From: Candidatus Evtepia faecavium
GTDB lineage: Bacteria; Bacillota; Clostridia; Oscillospirales; Oscillospiraceae
Direction: 5' to 3'
Length of the DNA stretch: 45,396 nt
Assembly: GCA_019115545.1 (NCBI GenBank)
Contig: DXDK01000065.1
Location: forward strand, 1 to 45,396
Shown: piece by piece, positions 821 to 34,038 of the stretch
How the letters are laid out: each line of letters begins with the position of its first letter
Position numbering within the stretch: position 1 is the first letter of the stretch
Notes under the pieces: generated by a model
Databases searched by the model: none
What the model saw: only the letters and a program-made list of their open reading frames with translations
Told to the model about the DNA's origin: nothing
Position numbers and translations under genes: made by a program

Positions 821-2257
821 TCAATCCTTCCGCCAGGTGGAGGGCAGCAGGAGGATGAGGATGGGGAAGACCTCCAGACGGCCGATGAGCATGGCCAGGG
901 AGAGCACCCACTTGCTCAGGTGGGAGAAAGCGGAGAAGTTCCCCATGGGGCCCACGGACTCCAGGCCGGGGCCGGTGTTGGACAGGCAGGCCAGGGTGGC
1001 GGTGAAGGAGGTGGTGAGGGAGAACCCGTCCAGGCACACGATGAGGCACCCCAGGCCCAGTACCGCCATGAAGCACAGGAAGAAGACGAAGGCGGTGTTC
1101 AGGGTGTCCTCGTCCACCGGCTTGCCGTCCAGCTTCACCACCTTCACTGCCCGGGGGTGGATCAGCCGCCGCAGGGACCGGTGGGCGCAGCGGAACATCA
1201 GCAGCACCCGGGAGGCCTTGATGCCGCCGGCGGTGCTGCCGGCGCAGCCTCCCAGGAACATCAGCAGCAGGAGGACGAACTGGGGCAGCACCGGCCACAG
1301 GGCAAAGTCCGTGGTGGCAAAGCCTGTGGTGGAGACGATGGAGGCCACCTGGAACCAGGCGTCCCGGAAGGCGTGGCCGGCGGTGTCGTACAGGGGCAGG
1401 ATGTTCCCAAACACCACCACCACCGCCAGGACCACCGCCAGGAGGAAGAACTTCAGCTCGTCGCTGCCCAGGGCCTGGCGGAGGCGGCCGGTGATCACCA
1501 GGAAGAACACGGCGAAGTTCAGGGAGCACAGGAGCATGAACACCGTGATGATGATCTCGCAGGCGGGGAGGTTGTAGGAGGCGATGCTCAGGTTCCGCAC
1601 GGACAGGCCGCCGGTGCACACCGTGGCAAAGGTGGTGGTGATGGCGTCAAACCAGGGCATGCCGGCGATGCGTAGGGCGATGGTCTCCGCCGCGGTGAAG
1701 ACGATGTAGATGCAGTACAGGATCCGGGAGGACATGGCGGTCTTGGGCACCAGCTTGGAGGCCACGGGGCCGGGGGACTCCGCCTGGACCAGCACCTGGG
1801 TCCGCCCGCCCACCTTGGGCAGGAAGGCCAGGGTGAAGATCAGCACCCCCATGCCCCCGATCCAGGAGGCGAAGGACCGCCAGAACAGGATCCCGTGGGG
1901 GAGGGACTCCACCTCCGTGAGGATGGACCCACCGGTGGTGGTGAAGCCGGAGACCACCTCAAAGAAGCAGTCGGTGTAGGAGGCAAATTCCCCGGAGAAC
2001 CAGAAGGGCAGGGCGCCGAAGAGGCTCATGGCCAGCCAGATGAGGCCCACCACGGCAAAGCCCTCCCGGGGGAAGAAGTCGGGCTTGGCCTTCAGCCGGG
2101 ACAGCAGGGTGCCCAGGGCCCCGGTGAGCACAACGGTGTAGAGGAAGGGGCGGGGGTCCTCCCGGTAGCCCAAAGCTACCACCAGGGGGACCAGGATGCA
2201 CAGGGCCTCCACCTGGAGGGTGCGGCCCAGGGTGCGGAGCATGAGTTTGTAGTTCAT
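821..2257 (-). CDS. trkH: TrkH family potassium uptake protein (paralog 1)
   Basis: 478 aa; four P-loop/filter segments GFTTTGGS, VCTGGLS, VSTTGFAT, LSNTGPG and a GGCAGSTAGGIK motif. Confidence 0.93.
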   Translation of the reverse strand: MNYKLMLRTLGRTLQVEALCILVPLVVALGYREDPRPFLYTVVLTGALGTLLSRLKAKPDFFPREGFAVVGLIWLAMSLFGALPFWFSGEFASYTDCFFEVVSGFTTTGGSILTEVESLPHGILFWRSFASWIGGMGVLIFTLAFLPKVGGRTQVLVQAESPGPVASKLVPKTAMSSRILYCIYIVFTAAETIALRIAGMPWFDAITTTFATVCTGGLSVRNLSIASYNLPACEIIITVFMLLCSLNFAVFFLVITGRLRQALGSDELKFFLLAVVLAVVVVFGNILPLYDTAGHAFRDAWFQVASIVSTTGFATTDFALWPVLPQFVLLLLMFLGGCAGSTAGGIKASRVLLMFRCAHRSLRRLIHPRAVKVVKLDGKPVDEDTLNTAFVFFLCFMAVLGLGCLIVCLDGFSLTTSFTATLACLSNTGPGLESVGPMGNFSAFSHLSKWVLSLAMLIGRLEVFPILILLLPSTWRKD

Positions 2258-2289
2258 GGGGAAGCAAACACCTCACAGAAAGGGCTGGG

Positions 2290-3726
2290 TCAGGTCCGCC
2301 GCCAGGTAGAGGGGTGGAAGAGCAGCAGGATGGGGAAGATTTCCAGACGGCCCACCAGCATGAGGACCCCCAGGAAGATCTTGTTGAACTCCGAGAAGGA
2401 GGAGAAATTGCCGAAGGGGCCCACCAGGTCCAGCCCCGGGCCCACGTTGGACAGGCAGCCCAGGGCGGCGGTGAAGGAGGAGATGAGGGAGTGGCCGTCC
2501 AGGGAGACCACCACGCTACCCAGCCCCAGCAGCAGGAAATAGCACACGAAGAAGGAGAACACCGAGCCCAGAGTCTCCTCGTTGACCGGCTTGCCGTCCA
2601 GCTTGACCACCTTCACCGCCCGGGGGTGGGACAGGCGGAGGATGGACCGGGTGGAGGAGCGCAGCAGTAGCAGGATCCGCCCGCACTTGATGCTGCCGGC
2701 GGTGCTGCCGGAGCAGCCGCCCACGAACATGAGCAGCAAGAGCAGCGTCTGGGAGAAGGTGGGCCACAGGTTATAGTCCACCGTGGAGAAGCCCGAGGTG
2801 GAGATCAGGGAGGTCACCTGGAACACCGCGTCCCGCAGGGCGTGGCCGGCGGTGTCGTACAGGGGCAGGATGTTCCAGAACACCAGCAGGGAGACCACCC
2901 CCAGGATCCCCAGGAAGAACTTCAGCTCGTCGCTGCGCAGGGCCTGCCGGGCCCGGCCGGTGATCACCAGGAAGAACACGGCGAAGTTCAGCGAGCCCAG
3001 GATCATAAAGACGATGGCGATGATCTCGCAGGCGGGGAGGTTATAGGCCCCCAGGCTCTGGTTCATCACCGAGAAGCCGGCGGTGCACACGCAGGAGAAG
3101 GTGGTGGTGATGGCGTCAAACCAGGGCATGCCGGCGATGCGCAGGGCCACCAGCTCCGCCCCGGTGAGGACGAAGTACATCAGGTAGAGGATCTGGGAGG
3201 CGTGGGCCGTCTGGGGCACCAGCTTGGTGGAGACGGGGCCGGGGACCTCCGCCCGGAAGAGGGTCTGGGACCGCCCCCCCACCTTGGGAAGGAAGGCCAT
3301 GGTAAAGATCAGCACCCCCATGCCCCCGATCCAGGAGGAGAAGGCCCGCCAGAAGAGGATCCCCCGGGGGAGGGACTCAATGTCCGCCAGGGCGGTGCCG
3401 CCGGTGGTGGTGAAGCCCGAGGCGCTCTCAAAGAAGCAGTCGCCGAAGGAGGCAAACTCCCCGGAGAACCAGAAGGGCAGGGCCCCGAACAGGCAGAAGG
3501 CCAGCCAGATCAACCCCACCACCGTGAACCCCTCCCGGGAGAAAAATTCCGCGCGGGCCTTCAGCCGGGACAGCAGGGTCCCCAAGATCGCCACGGGGAG
3601 AATGGTATAGAGGAAGGGGAGGGGGTCCTCCCGGTAATACAGGGAGACCACCAGGGGGACCAGCAGACACAGGGCCTCCACCTGGAGGGTGCGGCCCAGC
3701 ATCCGCAGCATCAGTTTATAGTTCAT
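2290..3726 (-). CDS. trkH: TrkH family potassium uptake protein (paralog 2)
   Basis: 478 aa; GFTTTGGT, VCTAGFS, ISTSGFST, LSNVGPG; collinear along its length with the adjacent 821..2257 protein. Confidence 0.93.
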   Translation of the reverse strand: MNYKLMLRMLGRTLQVEALCLLVPLVVSLYYREDPLPFLYTILPVAILGTLLSRLKARAEFFSREGFTVVGLIWLAFCLFGALPFWFSGEFASFGDCFFESASGFTTTGGTALADIESLPRGILFWRAFSSWIGGMGVLIFTMAFLPKVGGRSQTLFRAEVPGPVSTKLVPQTAHASQILYLMYFVLTGAELVALRIAGMPWFDAITTTFSCVCTAGFSVMNQSLGAYNLPACEIIAIVFMILGSLNFAVFFLVITGRARQALRSDELKFFLGILGVVSLLVFWNILPLYDTAGHALRDAVFQVTSLISTSGFSTVDYNLWPTFSQTLLLLLMFVGGCSGSTAGSIKCGRILLLLRSSTRSILRLSHPRAVKVVKLDGKPVNEETLGSVFSFFVCYFLLLGLGSVVVSLDGHSLISSFTAALGCLSNVGPGLDLVGPFGNFSSFSEFNKIFLGVLMLVGRLEIFPILLLFHPSTWRRT

Positions 3727-17494: not shown

Positions 17495-19333
17495 TCATGC
17501 CAGGTAGGACAGCATCTCCTCCACGGAAACCGACTCGTTCATGTTGTACCGGTCCAGGGCCAGGAGGGACTGGTCCATCCCCTTTACCAGGGTGTTGGTC
17601 CCCACCTCGGTGGAGAAGGAGATGTCAAACCCGTTCTCCAGCAGGGTTACCAGAGACAGAGTGTCGTAGTACCCCCCGGGGAAGGCCATCACGTGGACCG
17701 CCTCCTCCCCGGTGCCCGTCTGGATCTCCCGGCGGATGGTCTCGCAGTCGGCAGAGAGGGCAGCCCGGTAGTCGGCCTCTGACTCGCCTTCCAAGGGGAG
17801 CAGGTTCTCCCGAGGCTGGTCGGTGTCCTCGTAGGGCCCCCACTGGTGCATGTCGTAGGTGTGGCTCTGGATGGAGATGACCCCGGAGTCCACCATCTCC
17901 TTGGCCTGGGCATAGGAGAAGTGGGGGGTGATGGGGTAGTCGGTGTCCTTGTAGTGGTCGGTGTCCCCCACAGTGGAGCCGATGACGAAGATGGTGGCTA
18001 CCATGCCGTACTTCTCCAGAATGGGCCAGGCATATTCGTAGTTGCTCAAATACCCGTCGTCGAAGGTGATGACCACCGGTTTCTCCGGCAGCTCCTTCCC
18101 CTCCCGGACGTAGGCGGCCAGGTCGTCGGGGAAGATGGCGGTGTAGCCGGCCTCCGCCAGGGCGGCGATCTGGGCCTCAAAAGTCTCCGGGGTGATGGTG
18201 GTGTTGTCGTCGGCCTGGGGGTCGATGTGGTGGTACATCAGCACCGGCACCTGGTCGGTGTATTCCTCCAGGGGCAGGGGCTCTGCCGAGGCCATCTGGG
18301 CCACGTGGTCCGCCGCGTTTTCTGCGGTGACGTAGACGCCGAAATCCTCGGGGATGTACACGCTGTTGTCCCCAAAGATCCGGGCCAGGGCCATGTTCCC
18401 CACGCACTCCCGGAAGTGGGATTCGTCGTAGAAGTACCGGGGCTCAAAACTCACGGAGGAGTAGGAGAAGTCCCAGTAGTCGGTGACCTCCGCCAGGCGG
18501 GTGTAGAAGTCCGCCACCTGGTCCCAGGGGAAGGAGTCCAGGTAGTCGGCGTACACCGGGGCGGTGAGGACGATGAGGCGGATGCCGTGTGTCTCGCACA
18601 GGGCCTTGATCCGGGACAAACTCTCCAGGGTGCCGGTGATGGCCGCCTCGTTGGTCTGGTTGGACAGGTCGGGGTAGTCGGCAAAGACGGGGTAGGCCTC
18701 CAGGTACTCCTCCATGTTCCCAATGGGCTCGGCGTCCCGGACCTTTTTGTCATAGGCCCCGTTGGCCTCGTCAAAGACGTCGAAGGGCTGGGTGAGGTAG
18801 GTGTCCTGGGCCATGTACCGCAGCTTGTCCAGGCTGTGGCGGGGGTCCATGAAGAGGTATCTGGGGTAGAAGGTGAGGGCGGATTCCCCGGTGGTCTCCG
18901 GGGGCATGGCGTAGGACCGGGGGTCGCTCTCCACGTTGTAGTCCTTGGCGTTGTCGATGTAGACGTTCACCACCAGGTTTTTCACCTCGTAGTTTTCGAT
19001 GAGGTAGGTGGCCTGCTGCTCCACATCCAGCATGTCCGCCCCGTAGACGATCATGTTGTAGAAGTTGGCGTCCAGGTATTCGTTCAGGGTCTCCACCGGG
19101 AAGGAGCTCACCGAGGAGCAACCCAGGATATAGGAGTCGTATTCCTGGTGGTGGTCTTTCAGATAGGTAATCTTGGCGGTGCGGGGGTTGAGGGTCATCT
19201 CGTAGGAGGGCCACTCCAGGGCTTTGTGGGAGAAGATCCCGAAGGGGTCCACCAGCCAGTTGAACCCCAGCACGGCGGCTCCCAGCGCCACAACCGTGGC
19301 CAGGAAGCCCAACAGCCAGCGTTTGGAATTCAT
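17495..19333 (-). CDS. Two-domain cell-envelope protein: N-terminal SGNH/DltD-AlgX-like domain plus C-terminal polysaccharide deacetylase (NodB/PgaB-like)
   Basis: 612 aa; N-terminal TM; SGNH-like SYILGCSSVSSF and late YDESHFRECVGN; C-terminal VPVLMYHHIDP, VVITFDDGYLSNYEYAWPILEKYGMVATIFVIG, IQSHTYDMH, VMAFPGGYYD. Confidence 0.82.
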   Translation of the reverse strand: MNSKRWLLGFLATVVALGAAVLGFNWLVDPFGIFSHKALEWPSYEMTLNPRTAKITYLKDHHQEYDSYILGCSSVSSFPVETLNEYLDANFYNMIVYGADMLDVEQQATYLIENYEVKNLVVNVYIDNAKDYNVESDPRSYAMPPETTGESALTFYPRYLFMDPRHSLDKLRYMAQDTYLTQPFDVFDEANGAYDKKVRDAEPIGNMEEYLEAYPVFADYPDLSNQTNEAAITGTLESLSRIKALCETHGIRLIVLTAPVYADYLDSFPWDQVADFYTRLAEVTDYWDFSYSSVSFEPRYFYDESHFRECVGNMALARIFGDNSVYIPEDFGVYVTAENAADHVAQMASAEPLPLEEYTDQVPVLMYHHIDPQADDNTTITPETFEAQIAALAEAGYTAIFPDDLAAYVREGKELPEKPVVITFDDGYLSNYEYAWPILEKYGMVATIFVIGSTVGDTDHYKDTDYPITPHFSYAQAKEMVDSGVISIQSHTYDMHQWGPYEDTDQPRENLLPLEGESEADYRAALSADCETIRREIQTGTGEEAVHVMAFPGGYYDTLSLVTLLENGFDISFSTEVGTNTLVKGMDQSLLALDRYNMNESVSVEEMLSYLA

Positions 19334-19348
19334 AAAAACCTCCTCTGG

Positions 19349-20926
19349 TCAGAACTGCTGATAGATGAAGCCTTCGGGGATGTAATCCGCCCGGAGCACC
19401 CCGAAACAGAAGAGGAGGACCAGGGGGAGGACCATGGTGGCCAGCCACTGGACCAGGGGGGGCTTGGTCTCCAGCATGGGGCGGATGGGACCCTGTTTCT
19501 CCTGGTACCACTCAGTGGCCAGGAGGATGACCACCCCCACGATGACCACGGCAAAGTCCCACTGGGTCAGGCCCAGGGTGAGCAGGGTACCGTTCCACAG
19601 GTCGGGGAGGTTGGGGTGGAGGAAGGTCTCTTTCACCATCCACACCGCCGTGAGGAACCGAGGGGCCCGGGTGATGTACCGGCCGAAGAAGACCAGAATG
19701 TTGGTCCGGGCCACCTGGAACAGGTGCCAGCCCAGGGACTTGTCGTTGATGTGGAGCTTTTCCTTCCACACCAAAAACTGGGGGGCCAGCAGCAGGGACA
19801 GGGTGATGATGCCGCCGTTCCAGAAGCCGAAGGCCACATACCGCCAGTTGGCCCCGTGCCAGATGCCGATGACAAAGTAGACGATGAAGGTGGCCAGGGA
19901 GGTGGGCAGGATTTTTCCCAGCTTGCCCTTGACGTGCTTCCGGGTGAATTTCCCCAGCTTGGCAAAGGGCTTGGACAGGGAGAGGGGATAGAAGAGATAG
20001 TCCCGCATCCAGGCCCCCAGGGTGATGTGCCACCGCCGCCAGAAGTCGGTGAGGGAGGTGGAGAAGATGGGCCGGCGGAAGTTCTCCGCCAGGTCGATGC
20101 CGAACATCCGGGCCACCCCTCGGGCGATGTCGATGCCCCCGGAGAAGTCCCCGTAGAGCTGGATGCAGTAGAAGAGCACCCCCACGGCGATGACGCTGCC
20201 GCTGTGGGACCAGGGGTCGTCCAGCACGGTGTTCACCAGCACGGCGGCCCGGTCGGCGATGACCATTTTCTTGAAGTAGCCCCACATCATCAGCTGGATG
20301 CCGTACTTCAGGTCGGTGAAGTTCACCGACCGCCCCGCCAGCAGCTGGGGGGAGAGCTGGTCAAACCGGCCGATGGGCCCCTGGACCATCTGGGGGAAGA
20401 AGGAGACAAAGAGGAGGAGCTTGGCAAAGTTCCGCTCCGGCTGGTACTTGTCCCGGTAGACGTCGATGACGTAGCCCACCGACTGGAAGATGAAGTAGGA
20501 AATCCCCAGGGGGAGGATGAGCTCCGAGAGGGGGATCTGGCTGCCGGGGCGCACATGGTCGGCCAGGGGCTGGAGGAGCTCGGCGGTGAAGTTCCAGTAC
20601 TTCAGCACGTAGAGCAGCACAAAATTCGCCAGGCAGGCGGCCAGAACCACCCCCCGGCGATAGGGTTTGTATTTGGCGGTGATGGCTTTGCGTTCCTCTT
20701 TGGGCGCGGCCCGGCGCAGGTCGTTGAAGTGACCCAGCAGCCGGCCGGAGACATACACCGTGGCGGCGGTGTAGAACACGTAGAGGATGGTCTTGCCGCC
20801 CCCTACGCAGTAGAACACCATGCTGGCTGCCAGCAGGGCCACCCACTGCCCCTTTTTGGGCAGCAGGTAGTACACCCCCACCGACGCCAGCACCAGCACC
20901 AGAAAGGGAAGGGAGGTAAAGGACAT
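19349..20926 (-). CDS. MBOAT family O-acyltransferase (DltB/AlgI-like)
   Basis: 525 aa; MSFTSLPFLVLVLASVGVYYLLPKKGQW...LILPLGISYFIFQSVGYVIDVYRDKYQPERNFAKLLLFVSFFPQMVQGPIGRFDQL...FSGGIDIARGVARMFGIDLAENFRRPIFSTSLTDFWRRWHITLGAWMRDYLFYPL...WHGANWRYVAFGFWNG. Confidence 0.95.
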   Translation of the reverse strand: MSFTSLPFLVLVLASVGVYYLLPKKGQWVALLAASMVFYCVGGGKTILYVFYTAATVYVSGRLLGHFNDLRRAAPKEERKAITAKYKPYRRGVVLAACLANFVLLYVLKYWNFTAELLQPLADHVRPGSQIPLSELILPLGISYFIFQSVGYVIDVYRDKYQPERNFAKLLLFVSFFPQMVQGPIGRFDQLSPQLLAGRSVNFTDLKYGIQLMMWGYFKKMVIADRAAVLVNTVLDDPWSHSGSVIAVGVLFYCIQLYGDFSGGIDIARGVARMFGIDLAENFRRPIFSTSLTDFWRRWHITLGAWMRDYLFYPLSLSKPFAKLGKFTRKHVKGKLGKILPTSLATFIVYFVIGIWHGANWRYVAFGFWNGGIITLSLLLAPQFLVWKEKLHINDKSLGWHLFQVARTNILVFFGRYITRAPRFLTAVWMVKETFLHPNLPDLWNGTLLTLGLTQWDFAVVIVGVVILLATEWYQEKQGPIRPMLETKPPLVQWLATMVLPLVLLFCFGVLRADYIPEGFIYQQF

Positions 20927-20928
20927 GG

Positions 20929-21159
20929 TCAGTCGTCTTGCCGGGCTTGGATCAGGGCCAGCATGGCCTCCACAGAGTTGAAGTTTTCCGGCACCAGGTC
21001 GTCCACGGAGATCTCCACATCAAAGGCCTCCTTGATCTCGGAGACGATGGTGACGATGTCCAGGGATTCCAGGATCTCGTCGTCCACCAGAGCGGTCTCG
21101 GTCTCAAAGTCCACACCGGGGACGGCCTCGGTGAGGATCTGCAGCAGCTGTTCTTTCAT
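20929..21159 (-). CDS. Acyl/peptidyl carrier protein (DltC-like position)
   Basis: MKEQLLQILTEAVPGVDFETETALVDDEILESLDIVTIVSEIKEAFDVEISVDDLVPENFNSVEAMLALIQARQDD; Ser in LESLD at the phosphopantetheine position; ATG at 21159 (in-frame TTG at 21168). Confidence 0.9.
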   Translation of the reverse strand: MKEQLLQILTEAVPGVDFETETALVDDEILESLDIVTIVSEIKEAFDVEISVDDLVPENFNSVEAMLALIQARQDD

Positions 21160-21164
21160 GGGGT

Positions 21165-21953
21165 TCAACCTTCTTTCTTAGAATAGCACAGCACGGCGGA
21201 GCGCCGGCCGTCCGGGGCGAAGCCAAAGCGGCTGTAAGCGGCCTGGGCGGCCTGGTCCTCCGCCCCGGTCCAGACGATGCTCTTGGCACCGCCGATGGCC
21301 TGGAGGTAGGCCGCCAGCAATGGGCGGGTGCGGCCGGTGCCCCGACAGCCCGCGGCCACGGCCAGGTGGCGGATCTCCCCGGTGTTCCCTTCCAGGGTGA
21401 AGTGGAGCAGGCCGGTGATCCGGCCGTCTTCCTCCAGGGTGAGGACCCGGCGGGCGGCCAGGTCCCCGGCCAGTTCGGCCTCGTTGGGCAGACAGCCGGT
21501 GAGGGAGGAGAAGTTTTCTCGGAGGAAGGCCAGCACCACCGGCCCGGCCTCGGGGCCCGGGCGGGAGACAGGCTCCGCCGTCTCCTCCCCCTGCCCCGCT
21601 TTGCGGGACAGGCGCACCCGTTCCAGACACAGGGCAAAGCCCTGCCGGGTGAGATAGTCCACGGCCTCCTGGAGCCCCTTGTCCCGGGGGCGGTAGGCCA
21701 CCTCGGTGACGGTGGGGTCTGGCAGGGCGGCCCCCAGGGGGGCGGAGAGGTCCTCCAGGAAGAAGTGCAGCCGGGCATGGTTCCCCCGGTCCCGCAGCAG
21801 GAGCAGGCCGGCGGGGGTCTCCCAGGCGGTGAGGGCCCCTGCCGCCAGGGCGGGGCCATACTCTCCTTGGGAGACCATGGTGTTGGCCCGCACCCCCGGG
21901 CGGAGGTGGGCAGAGGCCAGCCGGGCCAGGGAATCGTAATCAGTGAGTTTCAT
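21165..21953 (-). CDS. GNAT family N-acetyltransferase
   Basis: 262 aa; C-terminal GNAT core RVLTLEEDGRITGLLHFTLEGNTGEIRHLAVAAGCRGTGRTRPLLAAYLQ...AAYSRFGFAPDGRRSAVLCY; ATG at 21953, 14-nt overlap with the adenylation gene. Confidence 0.8.
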   Translation of the reverse strand: MKLTDYDSLARLASAHLRPGVRANTMVSQGEYGPALAAGALTAWETPAGLLLLRDRGNHARLHFFLEDLSAPLGAALPDPTVTEVAYRPRDKGLQEAVDYLTRQGFALCLERVRLSRKAGQGEETAEPVSRPGPEAGPVVLAFLRENFSSLTGCLPNEAELAGDLAARRVLTLEEDGRITGLLHFTLEGNTGEIRHLAVAAGCRGTGRTRPLLAAYLQAIGGAKSIVWTGAEDQAAQAAYSRFGFAPDGRRSAVLCYSKKEG

Positions 21954-24884: not shown

Positions 24885-26528
24885 TTACAGCTCCGCGGCG
24901 AAGAGGGCGGCCCCCAGGGCCCCGCACAGCTGGGCGTCGGGGTGGATGTACAGGGGCTGGCCCAGCTTTTCCTGGATGGCCTCCACCACCCCCCGGTTCC
25001 GGGAGACCCCGCCGGTCATCATGCAAGGGCCGGCGCCCCCTGCCCGGCGATAGAGGGCGGCGGCCCGGCTGGCCACCGACTGGTTCAGGCCGTGGACGAT
25101 GTCCGGCAGGGCCTTGTTCTGGGCCACCAGGGAGACCACCTCGGAGTCGGCGAAAACGGTGCACATGGAGGAGATGGTGATCTCCTCCTTCCAGGACAGG
25201 CCCACGGTGGAGATCTCCTCCAGGGAGATCTCCAGGGTGCGGGCCATCATCTCCAGAAAGCGGCCGGTGCCGGCGGCGCACTTGTCGTTCATGACGAAGT
25301 TGTGGACGCTGCCGTCGGCCTCCAGGGCGATGACCTTGCTGTCCTGGCCGCCGATGTCGATGACGGTGCGCACGGCGGGGTTCAGGAAGTGGGCCCCCTT
25401 GGCGTGGCAGGTGATCTCGGTGACCGACTTGTCCCCCGCCTGGATCACCCCCCGGCCATAGCCGGTGGTCACCGTGGCGGCCAGGTCGGCCGGGGTGAGG
25501 CCGGCCTGCTGGAGGGCCTGGTCCAGGGCCCGCTGGGCCCCGTTGGAGGCCCCCGCCCCGGTGGGCAGGATGACCTTGGAGACGATCTGCTTGTCCTGGT
25601 CCAGGATGACCACGTCGGTGGTGGCCGAGCCGCTGTCGATGCCGGCGAAATAACCTTTGCGTGCCATGGGGGTGCGCGCTCCTTTCTGGGTGGGGGTGAA
25701 GCCCTCGGCAAAGGCCTCCAGCCGGGTGCGCAGCTGCTCCCGGCTCTGGGTGGTGCCGTCGGACTCGATCTTCAGCAGGGGGACGGGGAGGTGGTCCCGC
25801 AGCCCCGCGTACTCAAAGCCGTAGTAATCACAGAACTGGAGGGTGTGGTAGACCACCCCCTCCAGCCCCGGGGTGTGGTAGAGGGCCTTTCGGGCGGTGT
25901 TGTCCGTCATCCGCATACAGGGCAGCTGCCCCAGCAGGTTCCGGGCATAGGCCTCCATCAGCGCCGGGAAGTCCCCCTGGTCCTCCGGGGGGGCCACCTG
26001 GCGGTTGGCGGCGCAGGTGGCGTTTTCCACCGGCAGGGGCATGGTCTCCTCCACCAGGGAGAAGAGGTGGGACCCCATCTTGGCCCCCAGCACGGCGATG
26101 TGGGGCTCGGTAAGGGCGGCCTTGGGCTGGAAGGCGGCGAAGAAGGCCGCCCGGTCAAACTGGGTGCCCTTGTAGGCCCCGTAGGCCTCCGCCAGGGCCA
26201 GCAGCTGGTCCCGGGCGTGGTGGACCGAGCAGCTCTCCTGGCTGTGGAGAATGTCCAGCAGGTAGAGAAAGTCCAGCTTTCCCCAGGCCTTCAGGATGTC
26301 ATAGGCGCTGCGGATGGTGTCGCAGCAGTTCACCAGGACCAGTTCCTTCACGTGGCCGGCCAGGACGGCCTGGATCACCGACTTGCCAAACCCGCACAGG
26401 TTGGGGTGGGCCACCTGGTCGGAGAGGTCGAAGTTCTCCGGGGCCTCGTCCAGCAGGGCACACTGGCCTCCCAGGGCGGTGAGGAGCTCCGTAGGGGTGT
26501 ATTTGCAGACGTGATAGGTGATGCTCAT
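24885..26528 (-). CDS. 2-hydroxyacyl-CoA dehydratase-like domain fused to BcrAD/BadFG/HgdC-type activator ATPase
   Basis: 547 aa; N-half YTPTELLTALGG...NLCGFGKSVIQAVLAGHVKELVLVNCCDTIRSAYDIL...YHTLQFCDYYGFEYAGLRDHLPVPLLKIESDG; C-half YFAGIDSGSATTDVVILDQ...TGYGRGVIQAGDKSVTEITCHAKGA...IDIGGQDSKVI...NDKCAAGTGRFLEMMA...SSMCTVFADSEVVSL. Confidence 0.9.
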   Translation of the reverse strand: MSITYHVCKYTPTELLTALGGQCALLDEAPENFDLSDQVAHPNLCGFGKSVIQAVLAGHVKELVLVNCCDTIRSAYDILKAWGKLDFLYLLDILHSQESCSVHHARDQLLALAEAYGAYKGTQFDRAAFFAAFQPKAALTEPHIAVLGAKMGSHLFSLVEETMPLPVENATCAANRQVAPPEDQGDFPALMEAYARNLLGQLPCMRMTDNTARKALYHTPGLEGVVYHTLQFCDYYGFEYAGLRDHLPVPLLKIESDGTTQSREQLRTRLEAFAEGFTPTQKGARTPMARKGYFAGIDSGSATTDVVILDQDKQIVSKVILPTGAGASNGAQRALDQALQQAGLTPADLAATVTTGYGRGVIQAGDKSVTEITCHAKGAHFLNPAVRTVIDIGGQDSKVIALEADGSVHNFVMNDKCAAGTGRFLEMMARTLEISLEEISTVGLSWKEEITISSMCTVFADSEVVSLVAQNKALPDIVHGLNQSVASRAAALYRRAGGAGPCMMTGGVSRNRGVVEAIQEKLGQPLYIHPDAQLCGALGAALFAAEL

Positions 26529-27787
26529 GCTTTGCCCTCCAATACTTCCAGAAAGGCCTCCACCCGGGTGGCCGCCTGGCCCTCCCCGCCGAAGCCCCGG
26601 TCGCAGCTGTCCCCGTCCAGCAGGAGGGTGGGCAGGCCGGCTTCTTCAAACTGCTTCTTGCCCAGCTGGGCGCCCCCCAGGGTGCGCTTGCACCCCCAGT
26701 GGCAGAACCAGATGGCCCCGTCGGCCCCCACGGTGCGGGCCATGTCCAGCCCGGCCTGGATGCGCCGGGTCACCGGGCCGTTGATGGGGGAGTAGACCAG
26801 CCGCCGGGCCATGGCCTCATAGGGCTTTGTGGGGTCTGCTTCGTGGATGCCCTCGTAGCTCATGTCGCAGGCGGCGATCTGCACCCGGGGGTTTTGGGCG
26901 AAGAGCTGCCGCAGAGGGGCCACCCAGTAGGGGGTGGTGTGGATCCACAGGATCTGCTTGCCCTGGGCAGGGGGGGCGGTGGTGATCTCCCGGAGCAGCT
27001 GCCGGGCGTACTGCTCCACCTCCGGCAAACCCAGCAGGAAGTGGAAGGCGGCGGTGCGGAGCAGCTCCGAGGTGAGGTCGCTGAGGACCTGTTTCCCCCG
27101 GCGCTGCTCCAGCCCCCGGCGGAAGAGGTCCATGGTCCGCTGGCTCCGGGCCACCGCCCGGACCAGCTCCCCCTCGTTCACCGGGAGGCCGGTCTGGCGG
27201 GTGAGGAAGGCCCCCATCTCCCGCAGCTGCCCGGCCACATAGTCCACCGCCTGGGGGCAGGGGTCGAAGGGGACGTCCAGGTGGAAGTGGGGCACCTGGT
27301 AAAACTCCGCCATGTGCCGGAAGGTGAGGGCGTTGGCGTCGCAGGCCAGGGAGGTGGAGAGGATGAACCGGGGCTTGGGCATCAGGCCCATCTGGGCCGC
27401 CCCCAGAAAGACCTTGTGATAGGAGCACAGGCTGTTGGGGATGCCCGTGTCCTCGGCCTGGCGGAGGAAGGGCTGCTCGGCCATGGAGCCGGAGAGGTAG
27501 CTGGAGAACCCCTCGCAGGAGTAGGGGTGCAGCCCCTGGAGATGGAGCATCTCACAGGGGACGAAGAGGCTCACCATCACGTTCTGCTGGGGGCGGGCCA
27601 GGCAGTCCACCATGGCCCGGTTCACCAGCTGGAAGAGCATCCCGTCGGAGCGGGAGGCCTTCCGGCCGGTGAGCTTGTTCTTCACCCCGTTGGCCCGGAA
27701 GCCTGCGGTGAGCAGGGCCCGGGCCCGCTGGGGGTTGGTTTGGGAGAGGGCGCCTACCTTGGCGCCGAAGGTTTCCACGAGATTCAT
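26525..27787 (-). CDS. 2-hydroxyacyl-CoA dehydratase / double-cubane cluster protein-like (YjiM/HgdB-type)
   Basis: 420 aa from MNLVETFG; VPCEMLHLQGLHPYSCEGFSSYLSGSM, STSLACDANALTFRHMAEFYQVPHFHLDVPFD, GAIWFCHWGCKRTLGGAQLGKKQFEEAGLPTLLLDGDSCDRG; ATGA overlap with the next gene. Confidence 0.87.
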   Translation of the reverse strand: MNLVETFGAKVGALSQTNPQRARALLTAGFRANGVKNKLTGRKASRSDGMLFQLVNRAMVDCLARPQQNVMVSLFVPCEMLHLQGLHPYSCEGFSSYLSGSMAEQPFLRQAEDTGIPNSLCSYHKVFLGAAQMGLMPKPRFILSTSLACDANALTFRHMAEFYQVPHFHLDVPFDPCPQAVDYVAGQLREMGAFLTRQTGLPVNEGELVRAVARSQRTMDLFRRGLEQRRGKQVLSDLTSELLRTAAFHFLLGLPEVEQYARQLLREITTAPPAQGKQILWIHTTPYWVAPLRQLFAQNPRVQIAACDMSYEGIHEADPTKPYEAMARRLVYSPINGPVTRRIQAGLDMARTVGADGAIWFCHWGCKRTLGGAQLGKKQFEEAGLPTLLLDGDSCDRGFGGEGQAATRVEAFLEVLEGKA

Positions 27788-31540: not shown

Positions 31541-31629
31541 ATTTCGACGATATGATAGGGAAAAAGAACGGTCGAAACACGGGGAACCGGGGCGCGGGCC
31601 CTGGTGTGGAGAAAGGAGCGTGGGGCAGC

Positions 31630-33396
31630 ATGGAACTGTCCGATCTCATCTCGCTGCTGGGCGGGGTGGCCCTCTTCCTCTTTGGCATGACCCTTATGGG
31701 GGAGGGGCTCAAGAAAGTGGCGGGGAGCAAGCTGGAGCTGGTGCTCTATAAGCTCTCCAGCAGCCCCATCAAGGGCGTGCTTCTGGGCACGGGGGTCACC
31801 GCCATCATTCAGTCCTCCTCGGCCACCTCGGTGATGGTGGTGGGCTTTGTCAACTCCGGCATGATGAAGGTGCGCCAGGCCATCGGCATCGTCCTGGGGG
31901 CCATTCTGGGCACCAGCGTCACCGGCTGGATCCTCTGCCTGTCCGACCTGCAGGGGGGCGCCGGATGGGTCGCCCTGCTGTCCACTGCCACCCTCACCGG
32001 GGTGGTGGCGGTGGCGGGCATCATCCTGCGGATGTTCTGCCACAGCCAGACCAAGCGCCACGTGGGGGACATTCTCCTGGGCTTTGCGGTGCTGATGTTC
32101 GGGATGCAGGCCATGAGCGGCGCGGTGGCCCCCCTTCGGGAGAGCCAGGCCTTTTTGGACCTGCTCACCACCTTCTCCAACCCCCTGCTGGGCATCCTGG
32201 TGGGGATGGCCTTCACCTGCGTTCTCCAGAGCGCCTCCGCCGCTGTGGGTATCCTCCAGGCCCTGGCGGCCACGGGGGCCATCACCTTCGCGGTGGCCTA
32301 TCCCCTCACCATGGGCATCGCCATCGGGGCGGCCATGCCGGTGCTGCTGTCCTCCCTGGGGGCCAACACCAGCGGCAAGCGCACCGCCTTTGTCTATCTG
32401 CTCATCGACGTGCTGGGGGTGGTGATCTGGGGGAGCGTGTTCTACGGGGTGAACGCCGCCGTCCACTTCTCCTTCCTGGAGATGAGCCTGAGCTCCATGC
32501 AGATCGCCCTGCTGAACACCGTCTTCCGCCTGGCCACGGTGCTGGTCCTCACCCCCGTCATCGGCCTGCTGGAAAAGCTGGTCTGCCGCCTCATCCCCAA
32601 CCGGGAGCCCACGGGGCCCGAGGAGGAGGACTTCGACCGGCTGGAGTCCCGCTTCGTCCAGCACCCCGCCCTGGCCCTGGAGCAGAGCCGCCAGGCGGTG
32701 AACAACATGGCCGGGGAGGCCAAGGCCAACCTGGAGGACGCCTTCTACCTCCTCCGGGACTACCAGGAGAAGAAGTTCCAGTTCATCCTCCACCGGGAGG
32801 ACATCATCGACAAGTACGAGGACAAGCTGGGCAGCTACCTCATCCAGCTCACCGGCAAGGAGCTCACCTCCCAGCAGAACAAGGAGGTTACCAAGTACCT
32901 CCACGCCATCGGGGACCTGGAGCGCATCGGCGACCACGCCATGAACATCGCCGAGTGCGCCAAGGAGATCCAGGAGAAGAACGTGGTCTTTTCCAAGGAG
33001 GCCAGCCAGGAGCTGGACGTCCTCTTCGCCGCCGTCCAGGAGATCGTCTACAACGCCATCACGGCCTTCTCCACCAACGACCTGGAGCTGGCCTACCGGG
33101 TGGAGCCCCTGGAGGAGCTCATCGACTCCCTGTGTGACGAAATGAAGCTCCACCACGTGGACCGGCTCCAGCAGGGGATCTGCACCCTCCACCAGGGGTT
33201 CGTGTTCAACGACCTGCTCACCAACTACGAGCGGGTGTCCGACCACTGCTCCAACTTGGCGGTGGCCATGATCGAGCTGGAGTCCGACGCCTTCGACACC
33301 CATCAATATATGATCAGCCTCAAGCAGGCCCGCTCCCACGGCTTTGACCGGTACTATGCCGAGTACCGGCAGAAGTTCTCCCTCCCGGGGGATTGA
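31630..33396 (+). CDS. Na/Pi cotransporter family protein with C-terminal PhoU-like domain
   Basis: 588 aa; MELSDLISLLGGVALFLFGMTLMGEGLKKVAGSKLELVLYKLSSSPIKGVLLGTGVTAIIQSSSATSVMVVGFVNSGMM...; C-terminal helical region with LHAIGDLERIGDHAMNIAE. Confidence 0.95.
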   Translation: MELSDLISLLGGVALFLFGMTLMGEGLKKVAGSKLELVLYKLSSSPIKGVLLGTGVTAIIQSSSATSVMVVGFVNSGMMKVRQAIGIVLGAILGTSVTGWILCLSDLQGGAGWVALLSTATLTGVVAVAGIILRMFCHSQTKRHVGDILLGFAVLMFGMQAMSGAVAPLRESQAFLDLLTTFSNPLLGILVGMAFTCVLQSASAAVGILQALAATGAITFAVAYPLTMGIAIGAAMPVLLSSLGANTSGKRTAFVYLLIDVLGVVIWGSVFYGVNAAVHFSFLEMSLSSMQIALLNTVFRLATVLVLTPVIGLLEKLVCRLIPNREPTGPEEEDFDRLESRFVQHPALALEQSRQAVNNMAGEAKANLEDAFYLLRDYQEKKFQFILHREDIIDKYEDKLGSYLIQLTGKELTSQQNKEVTKYLHAIGDLERIGDHAMNIAECAKEIQEKNVVFSKEASQELDVLFAAVQEIVYNAITAFSTNDLELAYRVEPLEELIDSLCDEMKLHHVDRLQQGICTLHQGFVFNDLLTNYERVSDHCSNLAVAMIELESDAFDTHQYMISLKQARSHGFDRYYAEYRQKFSLPGD

Positions 33397-33441
33397 CAGG
33401 GGTGGTATCCTGAGAGAAAAACCCACAAGGAGGCACCATCC

Positions 33442-34038
33442 ATGGACCTGGACCGTCTGCAGAAAAACCTCACCCGGGCGGGGTTTGCCGTCCACCGCTT
33501 CCCCACGGCGGGGGAGGCCAAGGCCTGGCTCACCCGGCAGTGGAAGGGGAAGACCATCGGCGTCGGGGGCAGCATGACCCTGGAGGGCATGGGCCTGTAC
33601 GAGGCCCTCTCCCAGGAGAACACCGTGTACTGGCACTGGCACACCCCGGGCCAGGCCACCCTGGACCAGGCCGCCCAGGCCCAGGTCTACCTCACCAGCG
33701 CCAACGCCCTGGCAGAGACCGGGGAGCTGATCAACATCGACGGCACCGGCAACCGGGTCTCCGCCGCCCTGGGAGCCCATGAGGTGGTGTGCTACGTGGT
33801 GGGGCAGAACAAGGTGGCCCCCACCCTGGACCAGGCCCTCTGGCGGGCCCGGAATATCGCCGCCCCCCTGAATGCCCGGCGGCTCAAGCGGGAGACCCCC
33901 TGCGCCCAGGGGGAGCTGAAGTGCCACGACTGCAAAAGCCCCCAGCGGATCTGCAACGGGCTCTCCCTCCTCTGGCGCCCCATGGGCGGGGCGGGGGAGA
34001 CGGTGGTGGTCCTGGTGGAGGAGGACCTGGGCTATTGA
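33442..34038 (+). CDS. LUD-domain lactate utilization-like protein
   Basis: 198 aa; AWLTRQWKGKTIGVGGSMTLEGMGLYEAL...LTSANALAETGELINIDGTGNRVSAALGAHEVVCYVVGQNKVAPTLDQALWRARNIAAPLNARRL...CHDCKSPQRICN. Confidence 0.88.
   Translation: MDLDRLQKNLTRAGFAVHRFPTAGEAKAWLTRQWKGKTIGVGGSMTLEGMGLYEALSQENTVYWHWHTPGQATLDQAAQAQVYLTSANALAETGELINIDGTGNRVSAALGAHEVVCYVVGQNKVAPTLDQALWRARNIAAPLNARRLKRETPCAQGELKCHDCKSPQRICNGLSLLWRPMGGAGETVVVLVEEDLGY

Follow-up and report, generated by a model that had tools for sequence, protein, structure and literature searches.

A fused activase subunit and a HadB-like partner from gut Bacillota with the cluster-ligand pattern of class I benzoyl-CoA reductases: a probable ATP-driven low-potential reductase

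Class I benzoyl-CoA reductases are the only enzymes for which a set of one cubane and one double cubane has been described. In the BzdNO structure, the [8Fe-9S] double cubane is held by six cysteines of BzdN (Cys36, Cys73, Cys100, Cys263, Cys293 and Cys327) and the [4Fe-4S] cluster by three cysteines of BzdO (Cys95, Cys128 and Cys380), and Trp46 of BzdO is said to occupy the space of the lost sub-cluster (PMC11971306). At the time of this 2025 paper, DCCP and BzdN were the only proteins known to contain [8Fe-9S] double cubanes (PMC11971306). Here, we compare these systems with a pair of genes, A and B, from Candidatus Evtepia faecavium, which we regard as encoding, with a probability of about two in three, an ATP-driven reductase of very low potential that follows the architecture of class I benzoyl-CoA reductases.

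The pair is located in the window (the whole stretch of DNA analyzed, 45,396 nucleotides), which belongs to a 1.95-Mb assembly of 148 contigs. All coordinates of the pair given below refer to the minus strand. Subunit A (26525..27787; ATG at 27787, stop at 26527-26525) has 420 residues and is the predicted catalytic subunit, an HGD-D protein of the alpha type found in HadB, BzdO and MbdO. Subunit B (24885..26528; ATG at 26528, stop at 24887-24885) has 547 residues, and its gene overlaps that of A by ATGA. A matches the HGD-D profile PF06050 over its entire length (206 bits), and B matches it with 115.9 bits in two pieces (profile positions 1-126 and 196-340). Positions 127-195 of the profile are missing from B, and, as the secondary structure of its AlphaFold model also shows, residues 1-277 (25698..26528) form two alpha/beta cluster-binding domains without the central helical domain. 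This minimal, double-cubane-type HGD-D half is fused by a linker (residues 278-292; 25653..25697), which has low confidence and is poorly ordered in the model and measures 13-27 residues among relatives, to a complete activase (archerase) domain, an ASKHA-type ATPase (residues 293-546; 24891..25652). Both activase family models are matched above their cut-offs, PF01869 (BcrAD_BadFG) with 220.6 bits against 31.5 over residues 296-544 and TIGR00241 with 259.4 bits against 125.4, and both cluster cysteines of the family are present. Cys417 in the motif NDKCAAGTG (25278..25280; 81/81 sequences) and Cys456 in SSMCTVF (25161..25163; 80/81, one gap) are the predicted ligands of an inter-subunit [4Fe-4S] cluster in an activase dimer. 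A preliminary description had recognized a 420-residue gene and a fused gene overlapping by ATGA at 24885-27787, coordinates that are exact, and had assigned them to a dehydratase/DCCP-like superfamily, with B as a dehydratase-like N-terminal half followed by a complete activator; the HGD-D and activase matches bear this out.

We next consider the relatives of the two proteins. In Foldseek, the AlphaFold model of A (pLDDT 91.4) finds MbdO (9g87_A) and HadB (3o3m_A) as its best matches, with BzdO also recovered, at TM scores of ~0.77 over the query, and hmmsearch returns BzdO, MbdO and HadB as well. For the model of B (pLDDT 83.8, pTM 0.69), Foldseek places MbdQ (9gai_D) first with a TM score of 0.90 for the activase half, and matches chains of DCCP, HadC and BzdN at E values of ~1e-11. 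The activase half scores 227 bits against MbdQ 9gai_D, and the HGD-D half finds DCCP as its best hmmsearch match among solved structures (88 bits), followed by HadC and BzdN. A phylogeny had been suggested in the preliminary description as a means of placing both proteins. Our tree of 50 sequences, from which BzdO and MbdO were left out because only fragments were at hand, achieves this for A, which groups as the sister of HadB-type proteins (100/99). It does so in part for B, whose sequences form a separate clade (100/100) outside that of DCCP, with a very long stem (2.74); where B and BzdN branch relative to DCCP and HadC is not settled because of long branches, as a program warning indicates. 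A had earlier been likened to YjiM/HgdB; profile search, fold comparison and tree instead identify an alpha-type subunit closest to MbdO, HadB and BzdO. In the NCBIfam equivalog models, A and B both score far below every cut-off of a characterized family (HadB and HadC, 37 and 26 bits against 750 and 700; bzdO, 44.9 against 448.6; bzdQ, 159.6 against 380.2; DCCP model NF040772, 63.5 for B and 39.8 for A against 350).

We compared the cluster-ligand positions in an alignment of B, BzdN, DCCP, HadC and paralogues from the genome. All six BzdN ligand positions are occupied by cysteine in B: Cys8 (26505..26507; Cys36 in BzdN), Cys45 (26394..26396; Cys73), Cys69 of the Cys68-Cys69 pair (26322..26327; Cys100), Cys172 (26013..26015; Cys263), Cys204 (25917..25919; Cys293) and Cys233 (25830..25832; Cys327). 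The placement of Cys204 hinges on a local gap choice, with DCCP, BzdN and B all having a cysteine there. Conservation of the six is complete in 81/81 sequences and in 18 further genomes, whose B homologues are mostly 41-64% identical to B, and the extra Cys68 is likewise invariant. As controls, DCCP-family proteins have cysteine at all six positions, HadC lacks two of them (B positions 8, a proline in HadC-type proteins, and 172, an alanine), and an HgdB-like protein of the source genome lacks those corresponding to B positions 8 and 204. At the level of ligand positions, B carries the six-cysteine set of an N-type subunit and would hold a double cubane, although the absence of the helical domain might change the surroundings of this cluster.

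The same genome accounts for part of the case against a fermentation 2-hydroxyacyl-CoA dehydratase with fused activator, in which a single electron, injected once, would sustain many dehydration turnovers. The HgdB-like control protein is encoded on another contig (C111 of source genome G000, 17878-20920; locus L044) together with an HgdA-like protein and a stand-alone activase, and the organism thus already owns a classic dehydratase trio. In addition, HadC has only four of the six cysteine positions filled in B, the HadB and HadC equivalog scores are far too low, no CoA transferase, Etf or acyl-CoA dehydrogenase gene is linked to the pair in the window, and no partner recurs among the best 80 of 246 loci. 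We thus consider a dehydratase unlikely, even though A is of the alpha type with a HadB-like fold and groups with HadB in the tree, the activase is close to HadI/HgdC, and fermenting gut Clostridia are among the carriers. The preliminary description had also noted that these three kinds of gene are missing nearby, in agreement with our scan of the window proteins, and had judged a non-classical reductase as likely as a fermentation dehydratase. The reductase is now the better supported of the two, and the even odds do not stand in view of the six cysteines of B and the HadB/HadC scores.

A has three predicted ligands for a site-differentiated [4Fe-4S] cluster. Cys121 (27425..27427; 79/81, two gaps) aligns with BzdO Cys95 and Cys366 (26690..26692; 81/81) with BzdO Cys380. 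Cys149 (27341..27343; 81/81) aligns directly with the cysteine of the HadB NIC motif, and its equivalence to BzdO Cys128 holds only if a gap in the HMM alignment is moved by one residue. By alignment, A contains the three cysteines expected of an O-type subunit with a [4Fe-4S]-OH2 cluster. Glu92 appears to align with the position of the catalytic glutamate and Phe75 to lie at about the position of BzdO Trp46. The BzdO proton donor His131 is replaced by an asparagine in A, and His124 and Asn152 are invariants specific to the clade. Residue 73 is either serine or asparagine and residue 123 either tyrosine or phenylalanine in distant members, and BzdO-like binding of the thioester oxygen is therefore not to be assumed for A.

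The three ligand cysteines of A also bear on whether the pair could be a DCCP-like reductase of small molecules of the acetylene, azide and hydrazine class, with the double cubane of B as the active site. The HGD-D half of B indeed matches DCCP best among solved structures and shares all six ligand positions with it. In the DCCP homodimer, however, both subunits carry a double cubane, whereas A has three ligand cysteines and retains an alpha-type catalytic site, and B falls outside the DCCP clade, which together make this explanation improbable. The DCCP reading of the preliminary description fails in its simple form because A has three ligand cysteines only. The closest cofactor match is found in class I benzoyl-CoA reductase, which had been listed there merely as a reference for tree building.

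The fused pair is widespread. In a search of 84,980 GTDB species genomes, we found 246 stretches with a relative and took the best 80, all of which contain the fused B with A directly upstream (80/80; a few are cut by contig ends). Carriers among these best 80 of 246 include Evtepia, Flavonifractor, Intestinimonas, Blautia, Roseburia and Clostridium fessum, as well as metagenome-assembled genomes labelled Treponema and others; Evtepia gabavorous, Blautia and Roseburia are cultured. An even sample of the phylum Bacillota contains the family in ~27/399 genomes (7%), with nearly all reading frames between 539 and 605 residues, and a class-level sample in ~6 or 7/291. Of 18 further Bacillota genomes, 17 have the fused B next to A, and in the eighteenth all three modules are present but B is divided into two genes. 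Chance or a sequencing or assembly artefact is excluded because this arrangement is conserved across unrelated genomes. The distance from the A stop to the B start is -4 or -8 in 60 of the best 80 of 246 loci. Across 76 pairs, the distances among A proteins are correlated with those among B proteins (r = 0.94), a value that includes shared descent and thus speaks for co-inheritance of the two subunits, not by itself for their interaction. We found no description of the fused architecture in the open-access literature; subscription papers may hold one.

The split form occurs in genome G677 (locus L164, 2822-4443, on a single contig), where the N-terminal half, with all six cysteines, and the activase, starting with GTG, are separate overlapping genes and the break falls in the linker. 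In a genome of the same genus the fusion is intact, and the split may have arisen by natural fission or be due to a frameshift in the record. The three-gene form provides a built-in comparison for how the ATPase docks, and the fusion a compact two-gene system for expression. In known systems, one activase dimer serves one HGD-D dimer (PDB 7yyl, 9gai). With one activase per AB unit and activases being dimeric, the enzyme would thus either be an A2B2 assembly with a single ATPase dimer or pair with a separate activase. We favour A2B2 sharing one ATPase dimer, because two carriers (G010 and G034, the latter 80% complete) gave no match to a stand-alone HgdC-type activase, and the fused activase can therefore be self-sufficient.

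Starting from what can be read in the sequence, namely the domains, the positions and conservation of the ligands, the adjacency and co-variation of the genes, and the folds of A and the activase half, we infer the cluster types, an electron route, a stoichiometry and a reductase activity for A and B. The fused activase domains would dimerize and hold one [4Fe-4S] cluster between them, to which a donor of the ferredoxin or flavodoxin type would pass an electron. ATP hydrolysis would push this electron into the [8Fe-9S] double cubane of B, which may store electrons and relay them to A, whose [4Fe-4S]-OH2 cluster with three cysteine ligands would be the site of substrate reduction. The whole would be an A2B2 heterotetramer with one common ATPase dimer. 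If this is true, low-potential chemistry of the nitrogenase-like, ATP-driven kind is commoner in the gut than has been assumed and is hidden behind dehydratase-type family names.

The gene neighbourhood gives no indication of the substrate. The pair is flanked by an AI-2E transporter gene on one side and an Mbeg1-like gene on the other, followed by CoaX and SpoIVA, and a promoter scan for the pair found none. Among the best 80 of 246 loci, a neighbouring family is shared by at most 16, and then by close relatives only, and the immediate neighbours are unrelated genes with a family in common in at most 3/67. We rejected the neighbourhood as a substrate clue, as neighbour genes are not conserved, and CoaX as a partner, as its position differs in relatives. 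Nine carriers, incomplete genomes among them, have no enzyme of the benzoyl-CoA pathway (TIGR03200, TIGR03189, TIGR02262) scoring above its cut-off; with no pathway enzyme and no conserved neighbour, no substrate is backed. A two-gene module that stands alone, outside a metabolic operon, might also be a dedicated reductive activator of another metalloprotein such as a corrinoid or nickel enzyme, and activation by electrons injected at the expense of ATP has a precedent in the activation complex of methyl-coenzyme M reductase (PMC12176620). However, the pair has no linked gene for a candidate client, and A retains an alpha-type site for a buried substrate, in which Glu92 and Phe75 are conserved, which renders such a role very unlikely.

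The window has further features. At 31552-34035, a LUD-domain gene comes after a Na/Pi cotransporter-PhoU gene, and in locus L039 the same two genes adjoin A. Two tandem TrkH-type cation transporter genes lie beside a double TrkA protein (824-3726), and a ribosomal protein L10 leader RNA (Rfam RF00557; 7835-7985) precedes the L10 gene. An open frame of 1111 residues on the plus strand (17846-21181) runs antisense to real genes and is spurious, resulting from high G+C content; antisense reading frames across the A/B pair were likewise rejected as spurious.

We compared the pair to described systems. The giant BcrAD x2 - DUF2229 proteins (~1420 aa; PF01869 and PF09989) resemble B in having activase domains fused to others, but they differ in domain order and partners, have no Pfam HGD-D match and no A-type partner. 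Such a two-activase protein is encoded in locus L149 (901-5169) and on contig C38 of G000, with relatives in most genomes compared, and in locus L049 its gene adjoins the fused pair on the opposite strand. In the 2-hydroxyacyl-CoA dehydratases (HadBC-HadI, HgdAB-HgdC), the alpha subunit has the three-cysteine catalytic cluster also predicted for A, which is HadB-like in tree and fold, and the activator is related to the HadI/HgdC-like activase of B; their HadC-type beta subunit lacks the full six-cysteine set that B has, and their activator is a separate gene. DCCP and DCCP-R (PDB 6eno, 7yyl; NF040772) share with B the six ligand positions and an ATP-driven reductase partner, but DCCP is a homodimer of ~420 aa with a separate reductase, and A is not a double-cubane subunit. 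Class I benzoyl-CoA reductases (BzdNOPQ, MbdONPQ; PDB 8s02, 9g87, 9gai) have, like A and B by their ligand positions, a heterodimer of a three-cysteine [4Fe-4S] and a six-cysteine [8Fe-9S] subunit, and the activase is closest to MbdQ by sequence and fold. They differ in a separate, heterodimeric activase P + Q, where B has a single activase fused to an N-type subunit that, unlike BzdN, lacks the helical domain, and the HGD-D parts are 15-18% identical in fold alignments. We do not file the pair as a benzoyl-CoA reductase, because neither a P/Q activase nor scores above the equivalog cut-offs are found in A and B, nor the pathway genes in their carriers. Tentatively, and with rather less than even confidence, the pair may represent a widespread class of gut Bacillota enzymes distinct from benzoyl-CoA reductases, DCCPs and dehydratases, in which one ATPase dimer, made of domains tethered to two double-cubane subunits, serves two catalytic sites and drives an unrecognized reduction, of the Birch type or comparably demanding, of a compound from the diet or the host. 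In their ligand sets, activase and alpha-type A subunit, A and B match the class I benzoyl-CoA reductase plan more closely than the dehydratase or DCCP plan, and are best read as a new variant of the BCR-I/HAD/DCCP superfamily rather than as a benzoyl-CoA reductase proper.
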